Origin: Pedobacter cryophilus
GTDB taxonomy: Bacteria > Bacteroidota > Bacteroidia > Sphingobacteriales > Sphingobacteriaceae
Direction of reading: 5' to 3'
DNA length: 64,000 bases
Assembly: GCF_005116455.1 (NCBI RefSeq)
Contig: NZ_SWBP01000001.1
Span: forward strand, 310,001-374,000
Below, piece by piece: positions 3,842-63,522 of this stretch. Within the stretch, counting starts at the first letter, position 1. Every line of letters begins with the position of its first letter. The position numbers and the translations under genes were made by a program. The notes beneath the pieces were generated by a model that was given only the letters and a program-made list of their open reading frames with translations, searched no databases and had not been told where the DNA came from.

Positions 3842-6268
3842 ATGGTTAAAAAATTACGTTTTCTATTTACATTGTTAATCATCAATAATGCGCTTGTCTA
3901 TTGTCAAACTTCAGATTTTAAAATTACTGGTAAAGTATTTGCCAAATCAGAAAATATAGAGAATGTAAACGTTATTCTAATTACTGTTAAAGATTCTACA
4001 GTAGTAAAAAGTGTATTATCAGATGCTATTGGCAATTATGAAATTCTCAATATAAAGCCAGGCAATTACCGTCTTTCCTTTATTAAAACTGGTTATCAAA
4101 CTGTATTTACTGATGAATTACAGCTTAATCAAAAAGGTTTGGGGCTAACCATTCCTTTAATAGAAATAATTAAGCAACCAAAACAACTAAAAGAAGTGGT
4201 GGTGCAGGCAAAAATACCTTATATAGAAAGAAGAGCCGGCAAAACTGTAATCAATGTAGAAAACAGTGTTTTTGGATTGGGCAGTTCGGGTTTAGAAGTA
4301 TTACAAACCGTACCTGGCATTAGAATTGAAAATAACGACCAACTTTCTATCCAAGGGAAAAACAATGTAGCTGTTTATATAGATGGCAAACCCAGCAACC
4401 TATCGGGAATTAATTTAGTAGAGTTTCTTAAAAACATCCCCACCAATAATATAGAACAAATAGAATTATTAAATGGCTCTTCGGCCAGATATGATGCTGC
4501 GAATAACGGTGGAATCATCAACATCAAATTCAAAAAAGGAAAAAATATTGGCGCAAACGGTACCGCTTCTTTTGGCGGTGGCTTAGGCCGAAATTATAGA
4601 TATAATGCTGGTTTGAGCTTAAATAACAGAACCGAGAAATCTAATATCTATTTCAATTATGATTTTAGCGAAATTAAAGCAGTTGATGATAACTACCTAC
4701 GTAGAAACATAAATAACCCCAGTTTAAAAACTCTTTTTGATATAAAAAACAACGATTTAAAGACGAGGACTAATCATAATTTTTTGTTGGGATTAGATTA
4801 TAACCTGAATAAAAATCATGCGGTAGGTTTTTTGGTGAATGCCTTTAGCAATAAAATGCTGTCTGATGAGCATAACAAAAGCTTAATTTTTAATAATAGT
4901 ATTCAAGATTCTACCATTTTATCTACCTCTTTAGAAAACAGAAGAATTAACAATATTTCTACCAACATTAATTATGCTGGCAATCTTGGTAAAAAAGGCA
5001 CCAGCTTAAAAGCCGATGTAGATTACCTTAATTACGCCAGAAAATCTGACGAAAATTTAGGAAGCATTTATTTAGACAACAACGGTTTTGAGTTTAAATC
5101 CCCATTGCAATTTAACAACTTAAGCCCTTCTCAAATTGATATTTTGTCTATTAAAGCTGATATTTCAAATCCTATTAATAAAAATTCATCATTAGATGCC
5201 GGTTTAAAAAGCAGTTGGGTAAAAACATCAAGCCAAAGAAATATAAATATTACCTCTGGCCAAAATTATATTTTTAACCCAAGTACTTTATTTAATTATA
5301 AAGAGCAAATTTATGCCGGCTTTATAAGCTTTAAAACTAAAACAGAAAAAAGCAATTTAGAAATAGGTTTAAGAGCCGAACAAACCATTGCCAAGGGAGA
5401 TACTTCTTTAACAACTAAGTTAATAGATAGAAACTACCTCAACCTTTTCCCAAATTTATTATATGCTTTAGATTTCAACCAAAATCATAAAATTAGCTTT
5501 TCATTTAGCCGAGGAATCACCAGACCACGTTATGAAGATCTTAATCCGTTTTACTATTTTTTAGATCAATACACCTATAATCAAGGAAATCCTTCGCTTT
5601 CGCCATCCTACATTAATGCCTCTAAAATAAACTGGGAAATTAAGTCGAAATACAATTTTAGCTTGCAGTACAACTACATCAAAGACTTTGCTTACGTTGT
5701 TTATGAACAAGATAACGCCACACAAACCGCAACAACCAGCCGAAATAATTTTGATTACCGCCAAACCTTAGGTTTTGAAATTGGCATTCCAATCACCCTT
5801 GCATCTTGGTGGGATATAGATTTTAACACCCAAGCTTATTACGAATTTTTTAAATACACCAACAACCAAAAAAAACAAATTAATAACGAGAGCACTAGCT
5901 TTTTAGTCACTCTAAATCATACTTTAACGCTTCCAAAAGGTTTTAATGCTATGGCTAATATGCATTACGAAAGCCCTACTTCTTATGGCATTTTCACCTT
6001 TAAGCCGCTTTATTATGTCAACTTTGGCATCTCTAAATCTATTTTAAATAAACAAGGAAGCATTAGGTTTTTAGCTACCGATTTGTTTGACACCAACAGC
6101 AACAGATACGGTACCAACTTTTACAATTTAGATTTAAACGCCAAAGAGAAAGCCGAAACCCGTAGTTTCAGACTCAGCTTTAGCTATAAATTTGGTAAAA
6201 AAGAAGTGAAAGCCTATCGACAAAGAAAAGTTGGCGCAGCCGAAGAAAAATCTAGAGTAGGACAATAA
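3842..6268 (+). CDS. Outer membrane beta-barrel family protein (TonB-receptor-like), paralog 2
   Basis: An 808-residue exported protein with the same order of parts as its upstream neighbour: signal peptide (1-22, ending VYCQ), carboxypeptidase-regulatory-like domain (about 25-110), plug-like region beginning LKEVVVQA (about 115-235) and a C-terminal barrel. Matching stretches include PYIERRAGKTVINVENS, YDAANNGGIINIK and RPRYEDLNPF, which align with equivalent segments of paralog 1. The two genes therefore arose by tandem duplication, long ago judging by the divergence. The function is presumably uptake or surface binding of an unknown ligand; the assignment rests on architecture only. Confidence 0.85.
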   Translation: MVKKLRFLFTLLIINNALVYCQTSDFKITGKVFAKSENIENVNVILITVKDSTVVKSVLSDAIGNYEILNIKPGNYRLSFIKTGYQTVFTDELQLNQKGLGLTIPLIEIIKQPKQLKEVVVQAKIPYIERRAGKTVINVENSVFGLGSSGLEVLQTVPGIRIENNDQLSIQGKNNVAVYIDGKPSNLSGINLVEFLKNIPTNNIEQIELLNGSSARYDAANNGGIINIKFKKGKNIGANGTASFGGGLGRNYRYNAGLSLNNRTEKSNIYFNYDFSEIKAVDDNYLRRNINNPSLKTLFDIKNNDLKTRTNHNFLLGLDYNLNKNHAVGFLVNAFSNKMLSDEHNKSLIFNNSIQDSTILSTSLENRRINNISTNINYAGNLGKKGTSLKADVDYLNYARKSDENLGSIYLDNNGFEFKSPLQFNNLSPSQIDILSIKADISNPINKNSSLDAGLKSSWVKTSSQRNINITSGQNYIFNPSTLFNYKEQIYAGFISFKTKTEKSNLEIGLRAEQTIAKGDTSLTTKLIDRNYLNLFPNLLYALDFNQNHKISFSFSRGITRPRYEDLNPFYYFLDQYTYNQGNPSLSPSYINASKINWEIKSKYNFSLQYNYIKDFAYVVYEQDNATQTATTSRNNFDYRQTLGFEIGIPITLASWWDIDFNTQAYYEFFKYTNNQKKQINNESTSFLVTLNHTLTLPKGFNAMANMHYESPTSYGIFTFKPLYYVNFGISKSILNKQGSIRFLATDLFDTNSNRYGTNFYNLDLNAKEKAETRSFRLSFSYKFGKKEVKAYRQRKVGAAEEKSRVGQ

Positions 6269-6277
6269 GAATAATTT

Positions 6278-6400
6278 GAAAAGCAAGTTCCTGTTCAACT
6301 ATTAGCGGTAGCCCCGCTTTACGCATTACAGGCCTTCTCTCACAAAACCCATTACGGTAATTGCTGCAATCGGGTTTAGCTTACATAGGCTTGTGCTACT
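6278..6400 (+). repeat. Dispersed intergenic element R1, copy a
   Basis: 123 bp beginning GAAAAGCAA nine bases after a stop codon. It contains CCCCG, later ATCGGGTTTAGCTTAC, and ends TTGTGCTACT. It shares its skeleton with copies at 29969, 51878 and 61731. Left-end AAG...CCT can pair with right-end AGG-CTT, and CCCG with CGGG. It sits between convergent genes. Confidence 0.6.
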
Positions 6401-6429
6401 TATTCAAATTCAAGCCAACCTCAGTCTAT

Positions 6430-29381: not shown

Positions 29382-29954
29382 ATGAGCCATCAACAAATTA
29401 AATCCCATTTTGAAGAAGCAGAAAACGTGTTGGTTAATTTTTTAGCCAATGAGCAAAACTTCATTAACATAGAAAAAGCTGGGATTTTTATGGTTGATGC
29501 CATCAAAAACAATAAAAAAATCATCTCTTGCGGCAACGGAGGTTCCATGTGTGATGCCATGCATTTTGCCGAAGAACTCTCTGGCCGCTACCGCGATGAC
29601 AGAAAAGCTTTACCCGCCATTGCCATTGCAGATGCTTCACACATTACCTGCGTAGGCAACGATTACGGCTTTGATCATATTTTCTCTCGTTTTGTGGAAG
29701 GTTTAGGCAACCAAGGCGATGTTCTTTTGGCCATTAGTACCAGCGGAAACTCTGCAAATGTGCTCAATGCCATTAAAGCCGCAAAAGATAAAGGGATAAA
29801 AGTAATTGGCTTAACCGGTAAAGACGGTGGTAAAATGGCTTCTTTATGTGATGTTGAAATTAGAGCGCCATTCTCTAAATACTCCGACCGGGTGCAAGAA
29901 ATTCACATCAAAGTCATTCATTCTTTGATAGATTATATAGAGCAAAATCACTAA
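29382..29954 (+). CDS. gmhA: Sedoheptulose 7-phosphate isomerase
   Basis: A 190-residue SIS-domain protein. The phosphosugar-binding run [20 protein letters not shown] (about 50-69) and [10 protein letters not shown] (about 120-129) match GmhA. It makes D-glycero-D-manno-heptose 7-phosphate, the first step to ADP-heptose for lipopolysaccharide. The hldE/gmhB partners are not in the window. It is the last gene of the forward operon, followed by repeat R1 and a hairpin terminator. Confidence 0.93.
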
Positions 29955-29968
29955 GTTTTATTTTTTTA

Positions 29969-30100
29969 GAAAAGCAAATGCTATGGTTTTTTAAGGACCG
30001 ACAGTCTGGTTTTCCGCTGTATTTTTTGCCCAAAAACACAAAGCCAACCAGCAAAAAGATGCCGCTGCACCCCAGTTTATTTTACTTAATGCAGTGCAAT
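29969..30100 (+). repeat. Dispersed intergenic element R1, copy d
   Basis: 132 bp starting GAAAAGCAA 14 bases after the gmhA stop, containing TCTGGTTTTCCGCT and CCCCAGTTTATTTTACTTAA and ending GTGCAAT. Relative to copy b, the left CCCG is CTGG here and the right CGGG is CCAG, so two base pairs of the putative stem change together. Confidence 0.55.
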
Positions 30101-30131
30101 AACCAAAATAAACCGGATTGAAGTGGAAATC

Positions 30132-30165
30132 CCTGCCTGTCCGGCAAGGCAGGCTTTTTGTTTTT
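30132..30165 (+). terminator. Hairpin terminator after gmhA/R1
   Basis: CCTGCCT and AGGCAGG (7 bp) around an 8-nt loop, followed by CTTTTTGTTTTT. Confidence 0.7.
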
Positions 30166-30233
30166 CACAAAAAGATTGCAACAAAAAGCCGGACTAGCCT
30201 TTCTTAAAAAGCAGTACAGCGCCTTTTCAAAAA

Positions 30234-31775
30234 TTATTTTTTCTTTTTCAGCCTTAAATCGTAAAAATCAGTTCTTCTGTCTTTTAAGTTTTTAACGCTT
30301 CCAAACTCATGAAGTTCTTTCAATAAATCTAGGTTAACATCTGCAATCAAGATATTTTCTGTATTCGGAGTAGTTTCGGCAACTATGGCGTTAGAAGGAA
30401 AAGCAAAATCTGATGGCGAAAAAATGGCGGATTGTGCGTACTGCAAATCCATATTATTAACCTTTGGCAAATTACCCACAGAACCTGTAATGGCTACATA
30501 GCATTCGTTTTCTACGGCTCGGGCCATGGCGCAAAGTCTTACTCGGTTATAAGCATTTTGGGTATCTGTCCAAAACGGAACAAAAAGAATATCCATTTTT
30601 TCTAAGGCAAGTAAACGGCCTAGTTCAGGAAACTCTACATCGTAACAAATTAAAATTCCAATTCTACCGGCATCGGTATCAAAAACCCGAAGATCGTTTC
30701 CTCCCCTCATCCCCCAAGAACTAATTTCTGAAGGTGTTGGATGCACTTTAATGTAGCGGTCAAAACTTCCATCTCGGCGACACAAATAAGACACGTTAAA
30801 CAATTGATCATCTTCTAACAAAGGCATACTGCCAGAAATGATATTTACGTTGTATGAAACCGCAAGTTCACAAAATTTATTACGGATAGATTCTGTGTAG
30901 TTTGCTAATTCTCTAATGGCTTTTGCCTCGCCCAAATGGTTATAATCTGCCATTAAAGGCGCATTAAAAAACTCGGGAAAAACCACAAAATCTGAAGAAT
31001 AATCGCTTACCGCATCAACAAAATACTCGGCACTTTCCATTAAAGCTTTCACGTTTGGAAACAAGCGCATTTGCCATTGTACCAAACCTATTCTTACCGT
31101 AGATTTCTTTAATAGGTTATCTTTTTTCTCATCTATATAGTAAATATTATTCCACTCTAAAAGCGTGGCAAATTCTTTAGATTGCTGATCTTCTGGTAAA
31201 TAGTTTTTGAGAATTTTCTTTACGTGAAAATCATTAGAGATTTGAAAAGTTAAGGTGGGATCGTAAATTTCCTTCATTTTCACCTTATCAATATATTGAC
31301 GAGGGGTGAGTGTATCATGAAATTTTTCATAATTAGGAATTCGGCCCCCCAAAATAATTGATTTCAGGTTTAGGTTTTCGCAAAGCAATTTACGGGCATC
31401 GTATAATCTTCTGGCTAATCTTAATCCTCTATAATCTTGATGAACAAAAACTTCTATCCCATATAAAACATCTCCTTCATTATCATGTGTGCTAAAGGTA
31501 TAATTCCCTGTGGCTTGTGCGTAAGTATGGGTTTCTCCTAATTTGGCATAATCAACAATAATGCTTAAAGCGGTAGCTATCACTTTTCCATTTACTTTTA
31601 TACAAAGCTGGCCTTCTGGAAATATTTCAATCAAACGTTCAATAGATTTTTCTCTCCAATAGCTTTCTCCCATTTCTTCATATGCAGAAATCATGGCCGA
31701 TTTTAATTCTAGATAATCAGCTTGCTTTAAGGTTAGCAATTCAACTGTTTCTATTTGTATTGGTTTCATTTTCAT
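30234..31775 (-). CDS. GNAT acetyltransferase fused to a carbon-nitrogen hydrolase
   Basis: A 513-residue two-domain protein. Residues about 10-200 are a GNAT fold with the acetyl-CoA loop VHQDYRGLRLARRLYDAR (111-128). Residues about 225-505 are a nitrilase-superfamily amidohydrolase with the full triad: E268 in FPEFF, K343 in YIKVHPTP and C377 in LICYDVEFPE. The pairing could acetylate an amine and hydrolyse an amide in linked steps; the substrate is not known. Such bifunctional proteins are known in bacterial genomes, but their reaction is largely uncharacterised. It has no operon partner. Confidence 0.93.
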   Translation of the reverse strand: MKMKPIQIETVELLTLKQADYLELKSAMISAYEEMGESYWREKSIERLIEIFPEGQLCIKVNGKVIATALSIIVDYAKLGETHTYAQATGNYTFSTHDNEGDVLYGIEVFVHQDYRGLRLARRLYDARKLLCENLNLKSIILGGRIPNYEKFHDTLTPRQYIDKVKMKEIYDPTLTFQISNDFHVKKILKNYLPEDQQSKEFATLLEWNNIYYIDEKKDNLLKKSTVRIGLVQWQMRLFPNVKALMESAEYFVDAVSDYSSDFVVFPEFFNAPLMADYNHLGEAKAIRELANYTESIRNKFCELAVSYNVNIISGSMPLLEDDQLFNVSYLCRRDGSFDRYIKVHPTPSEISSWGMRGGNDLRVFDTDAGRIGILICYDVEFPELGRLLALEKMDILFVPFWTDTQNAYNRVRLCAMARAVENECYVAITGSVGNLPKVNNMDLQYAQSAIFSPSDFAFPSNAIVAETTPNTENILIADVNLDLLKELHEFGSVKNLKDRRTDFYDLRLKKKK

Positions 31776-49627: not shown

Positions 49628-49760
49628 GCGTTAACGATTGAAGCGATATACTTTTTATTTGATTTTAGATTTGTCAACTCTCTAAATGATTTGGCAAGAG
49701 AGTTGACAAATCTTCAAATAAAAAGATTTAGCGAAAAGCGTGTTAAAACGCCCAAATAAA
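49628..49760. repeat. Dispersed hairpin element R2, copy a (long hairpin form)
   Basis: 133 bp. The left arm GCGTTAACGATTGAAGCG and the right arm AAAGCGTGTTAAAACGCCC are shared with the copy at 58955; their ends pair (GCGTT with AACGC). Between them is a near-perfect stem of about 29 bp from 49651 (CTTTTTATTTGA) to 49724 (TCAAATAAAAAG), with a 13-nt loop. The 306-base gap between the genes at 49541 and 49848 contains no gene. Confidence 0.65.
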
Positions 49761-49847: not shown

Positions 49848-51110
49848 ATGAAAGTGATTCACCTTAATACTTATGATGGCAACGGAGGTGCAGGCAGGGC
49901 TTGTTACAGGTTAAATACCGCCTTACAAAATGCCGGCTTAGAAAGTGAAATGTACACTTTTATGAAATTTAGCCAAAAGCCAAATATCCACGCTTTATAT
50001 CCAAATTTGGTTCAGCGGGCTTTAGCTACCACCAATATTTTAGCCGAAAGGTATTTGCCAAAGTTTTATACCAAAGACTTAAAGCTTCCGTTTTCGCTAT
50101 CTCTTTTTGGGATAGATATTCATCAACATCCGGCAGTTAAAGCAGCAGATATTATCCATTTACATTGGGTAAATCATGGATTTTTAAATCCGGCGGCGTT
50201 AGAAAAACTCGCACTTTTAAATAAACCCATAGTTTGGACCATTCATGATAGTAACACCTTTACCGGAGGTTGCCATGTAAGGTTTAATTGCCAGCAATAT
50301 TTAAATGCTTGTGGTTTTTGCCCCTTGTTAAAAAAACCAGCTAGTAATGATATTTCCAATCAAATTTGGCTAAAAAAGCAAAAAGCTTATCAAAAAATAA
50401 AACCACAAATTATTAGTCCGAGTACTTGGTTAGCTGAAGCCGCCGGGCAAAGTGGACTGCTAAAAAATGCTTCTATAAACGTAATTCCAAATACTTTAGA
50501 AACGCAAATTTTTAAGCCCACCAATAAATCAGCAGCTAAAAAAGCTTTAAATATTCAAGAAAATCAATTTGTTCTACTCAGCGGATTTATGCCATCAAAA
50601 AAAGATGCGCACAAAGGAACCGCTTACTTAGTAAATGCTTTAGACCTTTGGATTACAAAAAACCCTGATTTAAAAGATAAAGCAACACTGCTTATATTTG
50701 GTAACCGACAAACAGAAACGAACTTGCCTTTTAAAATACCAGTTCAGTTTTTAGGGACCATTAATGATGATGAAAAATTAGCTATAGCTTATGCCGCTGC
50801 TGATGTTTTTTTAACCACTTCTTTAGAAGACAATCTGCCAAATACAGTAATGGAAAGCTTGGCCTGTGGCACTCCAGTGGTTTCTTTCACTACGGGCGGC
50901 ATTCCAGATATGGTTATTCACCAGCAAAACGGTTATTTGGCCGAATATAAAAATACCGAAGATTTTACCCGAGGAATTCACTGGGTTTACCAACATCCTG
51001 AAAAGGAAAAACTAAATACCAATGCTCGCGAAACGGTAATGAACAAGTTTTCAGAAGAAATTATAGCGCAACAACATCTTAAGTTATACCAGCAAATCTT
51101 AAATAAATGA
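49848..51110 (+). CDS. Glycosyltransferase, GT4 family
   Basis: A 420-residue GT-B enzyme. The N-terminal domain begins MKVIHLNTYDGNGGAGRACY, an acceptor-side glycine-rich loop, with HLHWVNHGFL and WTIHDSNTFTGGCHV (about 123-137). The donor domain has LSGFMPSKKDAHKGT and EDNLPNTVMESLACGTPVVS with the E-x7-E motif. This layout resembles WcaL/WcaC-type colanic-acid transferases. Its stop overlaps the ATG of the next gene by four bases (ATGA), so the two act together. Confidence 0.9.
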   Translation: MKVIHLNTYDGNGGAGRACYRLNTALQNAGLESEMYTFMKFSQKPNIHALYPNLVQRALATTNILAERYLPKFYTKDLKLPFSLSLFGIDIHQHPAVKAADIIHLHWVNHGFLNPAALEKLALLNKPIVWTIHDSNTFTGGCHVRFNCQQYLNACGFCPLLKKPASNDISNQIWLKKQKAYQKIKPQIISPSTWLAEAAGQSGLLKNASINVIPNTLETQIFKPTNKSAAKKALNIQENQFVLLSGFMPSKKDAHKGTAYLVNALDLWITKNPDLKDKATLLIFGNRQTETNLPFKIPVQFLGTINDDEKLAIAYAAADVFLTTSLEDNLPNTVMESLACGTPVVSFTTGGIPDMVIHQQNGYLAEYKNTEDFTRGIHWVYQHPEKEKLNTNARETVMNKFSEEIIAQQHLKLYQQILNK

Positions 51111-51871
51111 CCAATCAAGAATTCAAACCTCTTTTGTCAGTCATTACGGTGGTATATAACAACGCAAAAGATATTGAACGCACCATTAACTCGGTATTGC
51201 AGCAAAATTATGCCAACATAGAGTATATTGTGATTGATGGCGGCTCAACCGATGGCACTTTAGAAATTATTCATCAATTTAAAAACAGATTAGCTCAATT
51301 TATTTCAGAGCCTGATAAAGGAATTTATGATGCCATGAATAAAGGTTTGCAACTTGCCACCGGAGATTATGTGTTGTTTATGAACTCTGGCGACGAGATT
51401 TATGAAAAAGATACCGTTCAAAAAGTTTTTAGTAGCGCCCCAAATGCCGATATTTATTATGGAGAGACTGAAATGCTAAATGAACGACTTTTAAGCGAAG
51501 GCAGGCGACGACATCAATCTCCCGAAGAGCTAACCTTAAAAAGCTTTAAATACGGCATGAGCGTAAGCCACCAAGCCATTTACATTAAACGTAACCTTAC
51601 TAAACTTTACGATGCTCAATACCAACTCAGCGCAGATATTGATTGGATTTTATCAGCAATTAAGCAATCTAATAAAGTAGTGAATACGCAACAGTATGTA
51701 GCTAAATATTTAATGGGCGGAATGTCTAAAAAGAAACATCGTCAAAGTTTGTTAGAACGTTACCGCATTTTTAGAAAATACTACGGCTTTTTACCTAATA
51801 TTTTCCATCATTTCATCATCTCCTATAGGTTAATGAGCTATTGGTTGGCTAATAAAAAGACAAACGATTAA
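51107..51871 (+). CDS. Glycosyltransferase, GT2 family
   Basis: A 254-residue GT-A enzyme: LSVITVVYNNAKDIERTINSV (about 10-30), the nucleotide-binding DGGSTDGT (about 45-52), EPDKGIYDAMNKGLQLATGDY (about 66-86) and FMNSGDE as the metal site. The pattern resembles WcaA/WcaE-type transferases. It is translationally coupled to the GT4 gene and ends six bases before repeat R1 copy b. Confidence 0.92.
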   Translation: MTNQEFKPLLSVITVVYNNAKDIERTINSVLQQNYANIEYIVIDGGSTDGTLEIIHQFKNRLAQFISEPDKGIYDAMNKGLQLATGDYVLFMNSGDEIYEKDTVQKVFSSAPNADIYYGETEMLNERLLSEGRRRHQSPEELTLKSFKYGMSVSHQAIYIKRNLTKLYDAQYQLSADIDWILSAIKQSNKVVNTQQYVAKYLMGGMSKKKHRQSLLERYRIFRKYYGFLPNIFHHFIISYRLMSYWLANKKTND

Positions 51872-51877
51872 TTTTTA

Positions 51878-52000
51878 GAAAAGCAACAACAGTGGTTCTT
51901 AAATTCCGCTAGTCCCGTCTTCCGCTTATACTACACAAGGCCTTATTCTTGAGGCCGGTAAACGCTTCAACCGGGTTTATTTTACTTAAACTATTGCAAT
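51878..52000 (+). repeat. Dispersed intergenic element R1, copy b
   Basis: 123 bp from GAAAAGCAA (six bases after the stop of the GT2 gene) to CTATTGCAAT. It contains TAGTCCCGTCTTCCGCT, GGCCGGTAAACGCT and ACCGGGTTTATTTTAC. It is the same length as copy a. Confidence 0.65.
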
Positions 52001-52019
52001 AAAAAAAGCCCTAAAAATA

Positions 52020-58830: not shown

Positions 58831-58954
58831 ATGCCTTTAATATTCAATAAAAATTTAAAGCCTCATTAAGAATAATTTATAAGTTTGCAGAACTAAAATT
58901 TAGATAGATTTTGTATGCTTTTTTATTAGACGATTGAATCTAAATTTGCAGGTT

Positions 58955-59033
58955 GCGTTAACGATTGAAGCGGCATCCTTTTGGCTTTTCGCCAAAAGAT
59001 ACAGCGTAAAGCGTGTTAAAACGCCCAAATAAA
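58955..59033. repeat. Dispersed hairpin element R2, copy b (short hairpin form)
   Basis: 79 bp with the same left (GCGTTAACGATTGAAGCG) and right (AAAGCGTGTTAAAACGCCC) arms as the copy at 49628. The central hairpin is only CTTTTGGC-TTTT-GCCAAAAG. It ends 11 bases before the ATG of the amidase gene. Confidence 0.65.
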
Positions 59034-59938: not shown

Positions 59939-61621
59939 TTATCTCAAAACTTCTTTAGCCCAAGTATCTTTTAAAGTTACAGTTCTGTTAAATACTAAAT
60001 GATCTTCTGTAGAATCTTTGTCTACACAAAAATATCCTTTTCTAATAAACTGGTAACGTCTATCGGGGTTTTCTTCTAATTGTTTACTCGCGTTGGCTAA
60101 ATCTGGTTCTATGTAGGCATTTTTCAATACCACTAAACTTTCTGGGTTGATATAGTCTTTAAAATCGCCTTCTTCACGGTCGGGTTCTTCAGATGTAAAT
60201 AACCTGTCGTACAACCGTACTTCGGCAGTTTTAGCATGTGGAACACTTACCCAATGCATAGTTCCTTTTACTTTTAAGCCCGATGTATCTTCTCCAGATT
60301 TAGAATCAGGGAAATAAGTACAATGAATTTCGGTTACATTTCCATCTGCATCTTTAACAAAAGAATCACATTGTACGATGTAAGCATTTTTTAAACGGCT
60401 CATTAAACCAGGCCCCAAACGGAAAAACTTTTTAGGCGGTTCTTCCATAAAATCTTCGCGTTCAATCCATAATTCTTTGCTAAAAGGAATTGCTCTTTCG
60501 CCATCATGACCCTCAACTTCTGGATTATTCTCGCCATGCAATAGTTCTTCTTGTCCTTCTGGATAATTGGTAATCACCATTTTAATGGGATCTAAAACCG
60601 CCATTCTTCTCCATGAAGTTTTGTTTAAATCCTCTCTGATAAAGAATTCTAACAAACTGTATTCTAATAAGTTATCACGTTTAGAAATCCCTGTTCTATC
60701 ACAAAAGTTTCTGATTGATGACGGCGTAAACCCTCTTCGGCGTAAGCCACTTATCGTTGGCATTCTTGGATCATCCCAACCATTCACATATTTTTCGGTT
60801 ACTAATTGCAACAATTTACGCTTGCTGGTAACGGTATAATTTAAATTTTTACGAGCAAACTCATATTGATGAGAAGGATAAATCTCCAATTGCTCAATCA
60901 GCCAATTATATAATTCGCGGTGCGGAATAAATTCTAAAGTACAAATGGAATGGGTTACATTTTCAATGGCATCACTTTGTCCGTGGGCAAAATCATACAT
61001 CGGGTAAATGCACCATTTATCTCCGGTACGGTGATGATGGGTATGTTTTATGCGGTATAAAATAGGATCACGCATCAACATATTTACATGCGCCATATCT
61101 ATTTTAGCTCTTAAAGTACGGCTTCCATCAGGGAATTCGCCGTTCTTCATGCGTTCAAATAGGTCTAAATTTTCTGCTGTAGAACGGTTTCTATATGGAC
61201 TATCTTTTCCAGGTTCGGTAGGTGTACCTTTCAAAGTTGCCATTTCTTCTGCACTAATCTCATCTACGTAAGCCAAACCTTTCTCAATCAGTTTTACTGC
61301 GTAAGTATAAAGCGTATCAAAATAATCTGACGCATAAAACTCATTTTCCCAAGTAAAACCTAACCATTTAATATCATTTTTAATACTCTCTACATACTCT
61401 GTATCTTCAGTTACAGGGTTGGTATCATCAAAACGGAGGTTGGTATAGCCATTAAACTTTTGCGTTAAACCAAAATTTAGGCAAATGCTACTCGCATGCC
61501 CAATATGTAAGTAACCATTGGGTTCTGGCGGAAAACGAGTGACAATTTGAGCGTATTTTCCACTTTTCAGATCGTTCTCTACAATCTCTTCAATAAAGTT
61601 TAATGATTTTTCTTCAGACAT
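59939..61621 (-). CDS. glnS: Glutamine--tRNA ligase
   Basis: A 560-residue class I synthetase. [14 protein letters not shown] contains the HIGH motif (39-42), NLRFDDTNP and [19 protein letters not shown] are GlnRS-specific, and VTSKRKLL replaces the KMSKS loop. The C-terminal anticodon-binding domain with [15 protein letters not shown] and GYFCVD is complete. It charges tRNA-Gln directly. I prefer ATG 61621 to the in-frame TTG at 61627. Confidence 0.97.
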
Positions 61622-61641
61622 CTTCAATAATTAACAAGTCA

Positions 61642-61730: not shown

Positions 61731-61877
61731 GAAAAGCAAAACCTATAATTCTTAGGTTATGATAGTCCCGTCATCCGCTCATACTGCACAACCTGTCCCG
61801 AATATCCATCGGGAGGCATTATTCGCAGGGCCGGTAAACGCTACTACCGGGTTTAGTTAACATAGGTTATTGCTACT
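61731..61877 (+). repeat. Dispersed intergenic element R1, copy c
   Basis: 147 bp from GAAAAGCAA to TATTGCTACT, containing TAGTCCCGTCATCCGCT, GGCCGGTAAACGCT and ACCGGGTTTAGTTAAC. Compared with copy b it has an extra piece with a TCCCGA/TCGGGA hairpin. AACCTAT near the left end pairs with ATAGGTT near the right end. It occupies the centre of the 401-base gap between glnS and the next gene; the rest of the gap has only the two promoter-like boxes. Confidence 0.65.
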
Positions 61878-61995
61878 ATCTAAAAAAACCATATATCATT
61901 CACAAATTTTAATCTTCACCGTAAATTGATATTAACTTAAAACTTAAATGATAATTATTTAACATTTTAATTAAACGGGCTTAACCACAGCGAAA

Positions 61996-62022: not shown

Positions 62023-63522
62023 ATGAAATTAAAATTAATTACACTCTCTTTTATTTTATTAGCCTTTGCATCTTGTAAGAAAGATGAACCAGAATTTTTT
62101 GTTAATGAAGACGCCGCTACTTTTAGCGAGATAGGAAGTATAGATATTGGTGATGTTGGTGCAGCAGAAATTTCTGCTTTTGACCCTCAAACTAAAAGGT
62201 TATTTGTGGTAAATAACGGTACAGTTAACAAAATAGATGTGTTAGATTTTTCTGATCCTACAAATATTAAAGTAATTGCTACTATACCAACACTACCTTA
62301 TGGTGGCGTAGTAAATAGTGTAGCCGTAAATGATGGTAAACTAGCTGCTGCAATAGAATCAACAAATAAGCAAGCAAATGGTAAAGTAGTTGTTTTTAAA
62401 ACCAGCGATTACAGCGAGATTAAAGTAATAGAAGTTGGTGCATTGCCAGATATGATTACCTTTTCGCCAGATGGAAAATTTATTTTAACGGCTAATGAAG
62501 GTGAACCAAGTGACGATTATGCAAACGACCCGATGGGAACAATTTCTATTATAGCTGTAGAAAATTATACGGTAACCACCCTTAACTTTACTTCATTTGC
62601 AAGTCAGAGTGCGACCTTAAAAAGTAAAGGTTTCAGAATTTTTGGACCAAGCAATGATTTTGCTAAAGATATTGAACCAGAATACATCACCGTTTCTGAA
62701 GACTCTAAAACTGCTTGGGTTACGTTACAAGAAAACAATGGAATTGCAAAAGTAGATTTAAGCACAAAAACCATTACCAGCATCTTTCCTCTTGGTTTTA
62801 AAGATTATAATGTTGCAGGTAATGAAATTGACCCTAGCGATAAAGACAGTAAAATGAGTTTAACTAAATGGAAAGTAAAAGGCATTTATATGCCAGATGC
62901 TATTGCGGTTTTACAAAGCGGAGGAATTCCTTACCTTTTTACAGCTAACGAAGGTGATGCCAGAGAATATGCTGCCTTTGCAGAAATTAAAAGAGTCAAA
63001 GATATCAACTTAGATGCAACTGCTTTTCCAGACGGAGCCACTTTAAGAACTGATGCGCAATTAGGAAGATTAAATATTACCACTACTTTAGGAGATACTG
63101 ATGGAGACGGAGATTTTGATGCTCTTTATTCTTTAGGAGCAAGATCTTTTAGCGTTTGGAATGGGAATGATGGAAATTTAGTTTTTGACAGCAAAAACGA
63201 ATTAGATGCAAAAGCTATATCTGCTAATTTTTACGACGATGCAAGAAGCGATGATAAGGGTGCAGAACCAGAAGGAATAGCCATTGGAACCGTTGGAAAT
63301 AAAAAAGTAGCCTTTATTGGGATGGAAAGAGTTGATGCCGTTGCTATTTATGATGTAACAGTGCCAAGTGCCCCAGTATTTCTACAAATCATAAAATGTG
63401 GCGATGCCCCAGAAGGTGTGTTATTTATTGAGGCTAAAAACAGTCCAACCAAAAAGAGTTTATTGATTGTTAGTAGTGAAAACGATGGTGTTATAAAAAT
63501 TTACAGTCCAAGAACAATATAA
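62023..63522 (+). CDS. Choice-of-anchor I family beta-propeller lipoprotein
   Basis: A 499-residue lipoprotein with lipobox FASC (Cys18) followed by KKDE. The rest is a seven-bladed-propeller-like repeat region with AAEISAFDPQTKRLFVVN, FSPDGKFILTANEGEPSDDY, YLFTANEGDAREYAAF and AEPEGIAIGTVGNKKVAFIGMER, the hallmarks of the choice-of-anchor I domain found in many surface proteins and some alkaline-phosphatase-linked proteins. The acidic NEGE/NEGD motifs may bind calcium. The function is unknown. It has its own terminator. Confidence 0.9.
   Translation: MKLKLITLSFILLAFASCKKDEPEFFVNEDAATFSEIGSIDIGDVGAAEISAFDPQTKRLFVVNNGTVNKIDVLDFSDPTNIKVIATIPTLPYGGVVNSVAVNDGKLAAAIESTNKQANGKVVVFKTSDYSEIKVIEVGALPDMITFSPDGKFILTANEGEPSDDYANDPMGTISIIAVENYTVTTLNFTSFASQSATLKSKGFRIFGPSNDFAKDIEPEYITVSEDSKTAWVTLQENNGIAKVDLSTKTITSIFPLGFKDYNVAGNEIDPSDKDSKMSLTKWKVKGIYMPDAIAVLQSGGIPYLFTANEGDAREYAAFAEIKRVKDINLDATAFPDGATLRTDAQLGRLNITTTLGDTDGDGDFDALYSLGARSFSVWNGNDGNLVFDSKNELDAKAISANFYDDARSDDKGAEPEGIAIGTVGNKKVAFIGMERVDAVAIYDVTVPSAPVFLQIIKCGDAPEGVLFIEAKNSPTKKSLLIVSSENDGVIKIYSPRTI

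Follow-up and report, generated by a model that had tools for sequence, protein, structure and literature searches.

A dispersed palindromic repeat of Pedobacter cryophilus is a long-armed variant of Flavo-1, with features that suggest a mobile DNA hairpin

The intergenic repeat R1 of Pedobacter cryophilus is a long-armed variant of Flavo-1 (Rfam RF01705); it is a real element and not a categorically new one. The sequence-only reading of the window, the whole 64,000-nucleotide stretch of DNA analyzed here, had proposed a genome search with a covariance model. Such a model, built from 12 R1 copies, found about 107 full-length copies of about 125 bases each in the 4-Mb genome (G000). That reading had also offered a palindromic mobile repeat as one explanation, and this is supported by the copy number, by clean empty sites, by a covarying stem, and by the range of 0 to 31 copies per genome in 17 congeners. 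These data suggest that R1 is a mobile element that spread by hopping. In our judgment there is about an even chance that it is a non-autonomous, dispersed, REP-like palindromic DNA repeat and functions as a single strand in folded form. Apparently new are the complete anatomy of the element, its terminal pairing, the polymorphism of its insertions, and the evidence that speaks against a role as RNA.

Searching the genome with the signature GAAAAGCAA-N20-45-CCGCT gave 14 matches, 12 of which are true copies; the other two (L013 and L014) are coding-like sequence that lacks the rest of the element, and the reversed pattern, used as a control, gave none. Among the congeners, R1 is absent or nearly so from G001, G002, and G016. 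One sister genus of the same family has 68 copies, and 12 genomes of other families contained no match at E 1e-5. Of 119 genomes sampled from the class, 32 contain Flavo-1 itself. A protein search named relatives in Pedobacter, Pseudopedobacter, and Pelobium; the 566 kb of their loci hold no R1 match and serve here as empty sites only. Since R1 copies average 53% identity, the amplification in this genome is taken to be old.

The window contains five R1 copies and two copies of R2, a short-armed relative that matches the R1 covariance model over the core only. Four R1 copies lie on the plus strand and carry, as had been described, GAAAAGCAA, a CCCG-type block, CCGCT, a CGGGTTTA-type block, and a TTGC-like end, with TACGC in copy a in place of the TCCGCT of the others. 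Copy a (6278 to 6401; 84.4 bits with the covariance model) begins 9 nt past the stop codon of a TonB-type receptor gene (3842 to 6268), copy b (29969 to 30102; 102.7 bits) 14 nt past that of a SIS-domain gene (29382 to 29954), and copy c (51878 to 52002; 102 bits) 6 nt past that of a glycosyltransferase gene (51107 to 51871). Copy d (61731 to 61878; 102.4 bits) is flanked by two divergent genes: a class I (E and Q) tRNA synthetase gene on the minus strand (59939 to 61627), whose start is 103 nt away, and a plus-strand gene at 62023 to 63522. The earlier count of four missed copy e on the minus strand (30086 to 30228; 82 bits), 5 nt past the stop codon of the minus-strand gene at 30234 to 31775. 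Three copies were indeed placed correctly at 6 to 14 nt past a forward stop, provided that these are a, b, and c and not d. The stem variant CTGG/CCAG, which had been assigned to d, exists in b, and a, c, and d all have CCCG/CGGG. The R2 copies are both on the minus strand. One (49628 to 49753), with a T-run followed by GGGCGTT...AACGC, scores 40.2 bits, slightly below the Flavo-1 gathering score; the other (58955 to 59026) coincides with a Flavo-1 match of 52.5 bits at 58943 to 59022 on the plus strand. Copies b and e stand back to back and overlap by 17 nt (30086 to 30102) in a common palindromic 3′ arm (TGCAGTGCA), which suggests an insertion into the arm or recombination there.

When R1 loci were examined with cmscan, the core of the element proved to be Flavo-1 on the opposite strand. 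A comparison with Flavo-1 had been recommended, together with the remark that a match to an already described element would speak against the idea; the link is real, and R1 is in part such an element. Three of the first 12 R1 copies (L007, L011, and L006) score 57.8, 52.1, and 44.8 bits with the Rfam model, whose gathering score is 42 bits. Copy e, with its core at 30106 to 30199 on the plus strand, also reaches this score; L008, L002 (copy b), and L012 fall below it, as do the majority of R1 copies. In the whole genome, the Rfam model gives 86 matches above the cut-off, which are of two types, R1 and R2, when viewed in the R1 orientation. R1 has the consensus stem of Flavo-1 with the same mispaired internal loops, and a foot that reads TAAA in most copies and TAGC (UAGC as RNA) in some variants, as compared with UAGCC in Rfam. 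The R1-type layout is a T-run, GAAAAGCAA, a spacer of about 28 nt, AGTCCCG-stem-CGGGTTTA, and an arm of about 26 nt, whereas R2 consists of a T-run, GGGCGTT, a spacer of about 6 nt, the stem, and AACGC. Relative to Flavo-1, one end of R1 is extended by the T-run, GAAAAGCAA, and spacer and the opposite end by about 26 bases; the Rfam model has neither the arms nor the terminal pair, X-X′, described below.

We then considered the stem in an alignment of 102 distinct R1 copies. Column pairs 48-203, 49-202, 53-198, and 63-187 have a mutual information of 1.33 to 1.57 bits and are 93 to 98% Watson-Crick, percentages that an alignment fitted to the stem biases towards pairing; neither the mismatches nor the terminal pairs belonged to the model. 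None of 500 shuffles reached the observed covariation score, and all slid versions scored lower too. Covariation at these column pairs is near-perfect. A structured RNA made from the Flavo-1 strand, such as an sRNA or UTR element, would also be expected to show strong covariation. However, of 812 cells in eight core pairs, 771 are Watson-Crick, only 3 are G.U (0.4%), and 12 are A.C (1.5%), as opposed to G.U in 49 of 605 pairs (8.1%) in the tRNA stems of the same genome. Wobble is nearly absent whichever strand is read, and folding DNA fits this better than folding RNA.

The mismatches in the internal loops are conserved as well. On the Flavo-1 strand, column 200-51 is A.G in 72 copies and G.A in 26, column 196-54 is G.A in 100 of 102, column 194-56 is A.G or A.A in 97, and column 191-59 is G.A in 87. 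They are pyrimidine mismatches when the R1 strand is read, which makes the Flavo-1 strand the likelier one to fold. The opposite preference is seen at two positions of the upper stem: columns 64-186 and 65-185 (alignment A2) are T.G on the R1 strand and A.C on the Flavo-1 strand. Folding of single copies as DNA was mostly no better than that of shuffled sequences (z scores of -1.9 to +0.7), perhaps as a result of the penalty that the energy model places on G.A loops. Such G.A patterns are typical of RNA too.

Outside the stem, only one pairing covaries. The first bases of the element, GAAAA, pair with TTTA, which comes right after CGGG; in the alignment, columns 3 to 5 pair with columns 205 to 207, directly 3′ of the stem. 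In copy d, the X box GAAAA occupies 61731 to 61735, just past the left-hand junction, and the 3′ strand of the stem, CGGG, followed by X′ (TTTA), occupies 61848 to 61855, both on the plus strand. The terminal pair is AAA/TTT in 90 R1 copies, AAG/CTT in 7, and AGC/GCT in 2, with no mismatch in any complete copy. All 24 R2 copies pair in the same way with five sequence types (GGGCGTT/AACGC, GGGCATT/AATGC, GGGCGCT/AGCGC, GGGTGTT/AACAC, and GGGCGTG/CACGC). The pairing recurs in congeners and one sister genus, from which 47 copies were examined; four of these add AGA/TCT, and one is a G.T exception. In other families of the class, a T-run and GGAGC or GAAGC go with GCTA, with spacers that are short (about 5 nt) or long (about 38 nt). 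In terms of the Flavo-1 strand, the hairpin carries at its 5′ foot a few bases (TAAA, TAAG, TAGC, or TAGA; TAAA in copy d) that are complementary to the 3′ end of the element (GCTTTTC, GCTTC, and variants). Across the 102 copies there is no covariation of the left- and right-end pairing quoted earlier for copies a and c, and this led us to reject GCAA/TTGC and AACCTAT/ATAGGTT as end-to-end pairs; the latter, credited to c, is in fact in d.

We next turned to junctions and gene context. Each of the five positions before the element is 74 to 91% T, and TTTT occurs within the last 8 nt upstream in 78 of 102 copies, compared with 8% in the nearby background. After a sense gene, the distance from the stop codon is mostly 3 to 28 nt, or else 57 to 120 nt, and several copies sit past a terminator hairpin and its T-tract. 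We attribute the position after stop codons to the T-runs found there. The upstream gene is sense in 57 copies and antisense in 45, without orientation bias, and we rejected a role as a 3′ UTR or terminator on this basis.

Presence and absence could be compared between species at two loci. The gap between the glycosyltransferase and YfhO genes, where copy c resides, is 83 to 85 bp and empty in five relatives and 198 bp in the window. Copy c lies between the stop codon and a bidirectional terminator common to the relatives. No target duplication is evident at this one resolved site, where the flanks of the relatives have diverged, and none was seen in the other R1 flanks inspected. Copy b is absent from three congeners that keep the gene pair (G014, G005, and G007). 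All three have a minus-strand copy at this locus, and its stem has decayed in G005 and G007.

A structured RNA, often in 3′ UTRs, had been the other explanation offered for R1, and we consider it unlikely. Flavo-1 was listed in a discovery table in 2010 (PMC2864571), Rfam labels it an sRNA, and a 2022 review counts it among abundant sRNAs (PMC9029176). A transcriptome study of F. psychrophilum gave it no function and reported matches in both orientations (PMC9723704). Some of those matches coincide with 5′ transcribed regions, but they are sense and antisense to transcripts and many lie outside any (PMC9723704). Avoidance of G.U, the lack of orientation bias, decay at an orthologous site, and a range from 0 to about 107 copies within one genus all argue against an RNA. 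None of the open-access papers that we searched describes Flavo-1 as a DNA repeat that moves.

It is quite unlikely, too, that R1 is a DNA site that serves the host in protein binding, termination, or nucleoid structure and is copied by recombination instead of by a transposase. Pairing is kept in old, diverged copies, and many copies follow stop codons or terminators, as such a site might. Against this, three congeners do without the element or nearly so, copies decay at the orthologous site in G005 and G007, and the gene context is inconsistent, with the after-stop position accounted for by T-runs. R1 could also be a MITE derived from a classical DDE insertion sequence, in which case terminal inverted repeats and a target duplication are expected. 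A short, dispersed element with AT-rich targets and AGCAA/TTGCT-like ends would agree with this, but such an origin is very unlikely: no duplication was seen at the resolved site or in the inspected flanks, the motif at the ends shows no covariation of the inverted-repeat kind, and one mismatched hairpin whose foot bases are complementary is unlike the DDE design.

How would a folded single strand move? For the REP-like DNA repeat, we propose that a single hairpin, with the conserved G.A mismatches, forms on the Flavo-1 strand (minus relative to R1). Three to four bases at its 5′ foot would pair with the last 3′ bases of the element, next to an A-run of the host (the T-run of the R1 strand). 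A strand-specific nuclease or transposase would read the hairpin, and we infer that the foot bases act as a guide that selects the cut at the element end. This use of a guide is modeled on IS200/IS605 and REP transposases. The cut strand would then be pasted beside T-rich sites, often just past a stop codon or the T-tract of a terminator. Such an enzyme would have to work in trans and may have disappeared from many genomes.

With moderate confidence, by analogy, we suggest that R1 works like IS200/IS605 ends and REPs. We do not claim that it belongs to either family, since tests for both failed. The guide sequences of IS200/IS605, located 5′ of the palindrome, select cleavage sites by pairing with them (PMC8266576). 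R1 and these ends, with the non-autonomous elements derived from them, have in common a single-strand hairpin and bases 5′ of the hairpin that are complementary to the terminal bases, and perhaps a lack of target duplication, none being evident at the one resolved site; in R1 the complementarity is maintained in compensated variants, and cleavage there is predicted. Unlike IS200/IS605, which has one hairpin per end, R1 has a single hairpin, its junction is a T-run and not a fixed tetranucleotide, and no tnpA gene with R1 ends was found. REPs (RAYT/TnpA_REP; GTAG and CGTC families) are likewise many-copy, strand-specific, non-coding extragenic palindromes with conserved stem mismatches, which E. 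coli REPs require (PMC8266576), and with a conserved tag of a few bases at the 5′ foot. In contrast to REPs, which are 20 to 40 bases long, the elements here have 75 to 150 bases; the R1/R2 tag is TAAA, TAAG, TAGC, or TAGA and neither GTAG nor CGTC; the tag of the Flavo-1 element pairs with its distal end; and R1 and R2 were not found around RAYT genes.

A resident mobilizer did not emerge. Among 36 Y1_Tnp loci in 11 genomes, none is bracketed by R1 copies, and two have R1 nearby, about the background rate. We therefore rejected a RAYT or IS200 as the resident mobilizer; three IS200-like tnpA loci lack common ends, and no tnpA-bearing relative with the same ends as R1 was found. A full element bearing an ORF between closely spaced copies was rejected as well, as such intervals contain ordinary genes only or none. 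In genome G027, which has 23 matches to Flavo-1, no Y1_Tnp gene was detectable. On this ground we tentatively entertain, as a possibility short of an even chance, that Flavo-1 is a large Bacteroidota family of single-strand-DNA mobile elements whose hairpin foot encodes its own cut site through base pairing and whose enzyme is not a known Y1 (TnpA/RAYT). If Flavo-1 is a mobile DNA hairpin, its sRNA annotations and abundance counts are misleading. The cut site, apparently coded in the foot of the stem, offers a prediction that can be tested directly, and the enzyme that is missing could belong to a new class of single-strand transposases.

Subclass 2.6 TnpA_REP of Bacteroidetes is associated with "atypical secondary structures" that have copies elsewhere in the genome (PMC6006769), and R1 resembles these in host and in having atypical structures with dispersed copies. 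The likely members of this subclass here, assigned by motif only, are two group-5-like RAYT genes (L018 and L019); they differ in being flanked by another repeat, not R1 or R2. That repeat (L018, 1980 to 2170; L019, 1370 to 2160) contains GTCCGG and AGTCCTCGGTTTTCATAAAGCATTTAAGTG...CACTTAAACGAGGAGG, with tandem copies downstream of L019, and is probably their cognate atypical REP.

On contig C49 of genome G082 (L266, 1 to 700), two near-identical long-armed Flavo-1 copies with TTAG...CTAA ends stand 588 bp apart, which indicates either recent activity or an overlap of contig ends in the assembly. R2 occurs in similar intergenic places of other congeners, upstream of the tRNA synthetase gene (L360, L362, and L363) and near the CN-hydrolase gene (L340 and L341); at these five loci the hairpin tips are scrambled and the terminal pairing boxes are intact. 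Another dispersed sequence, of the CCTTCGACTCCGCTCAGGATG type, is found in the R2 hairpin tips of L033, L037, and L039 and in the right flank of L011, as if repeats were nested in one another.
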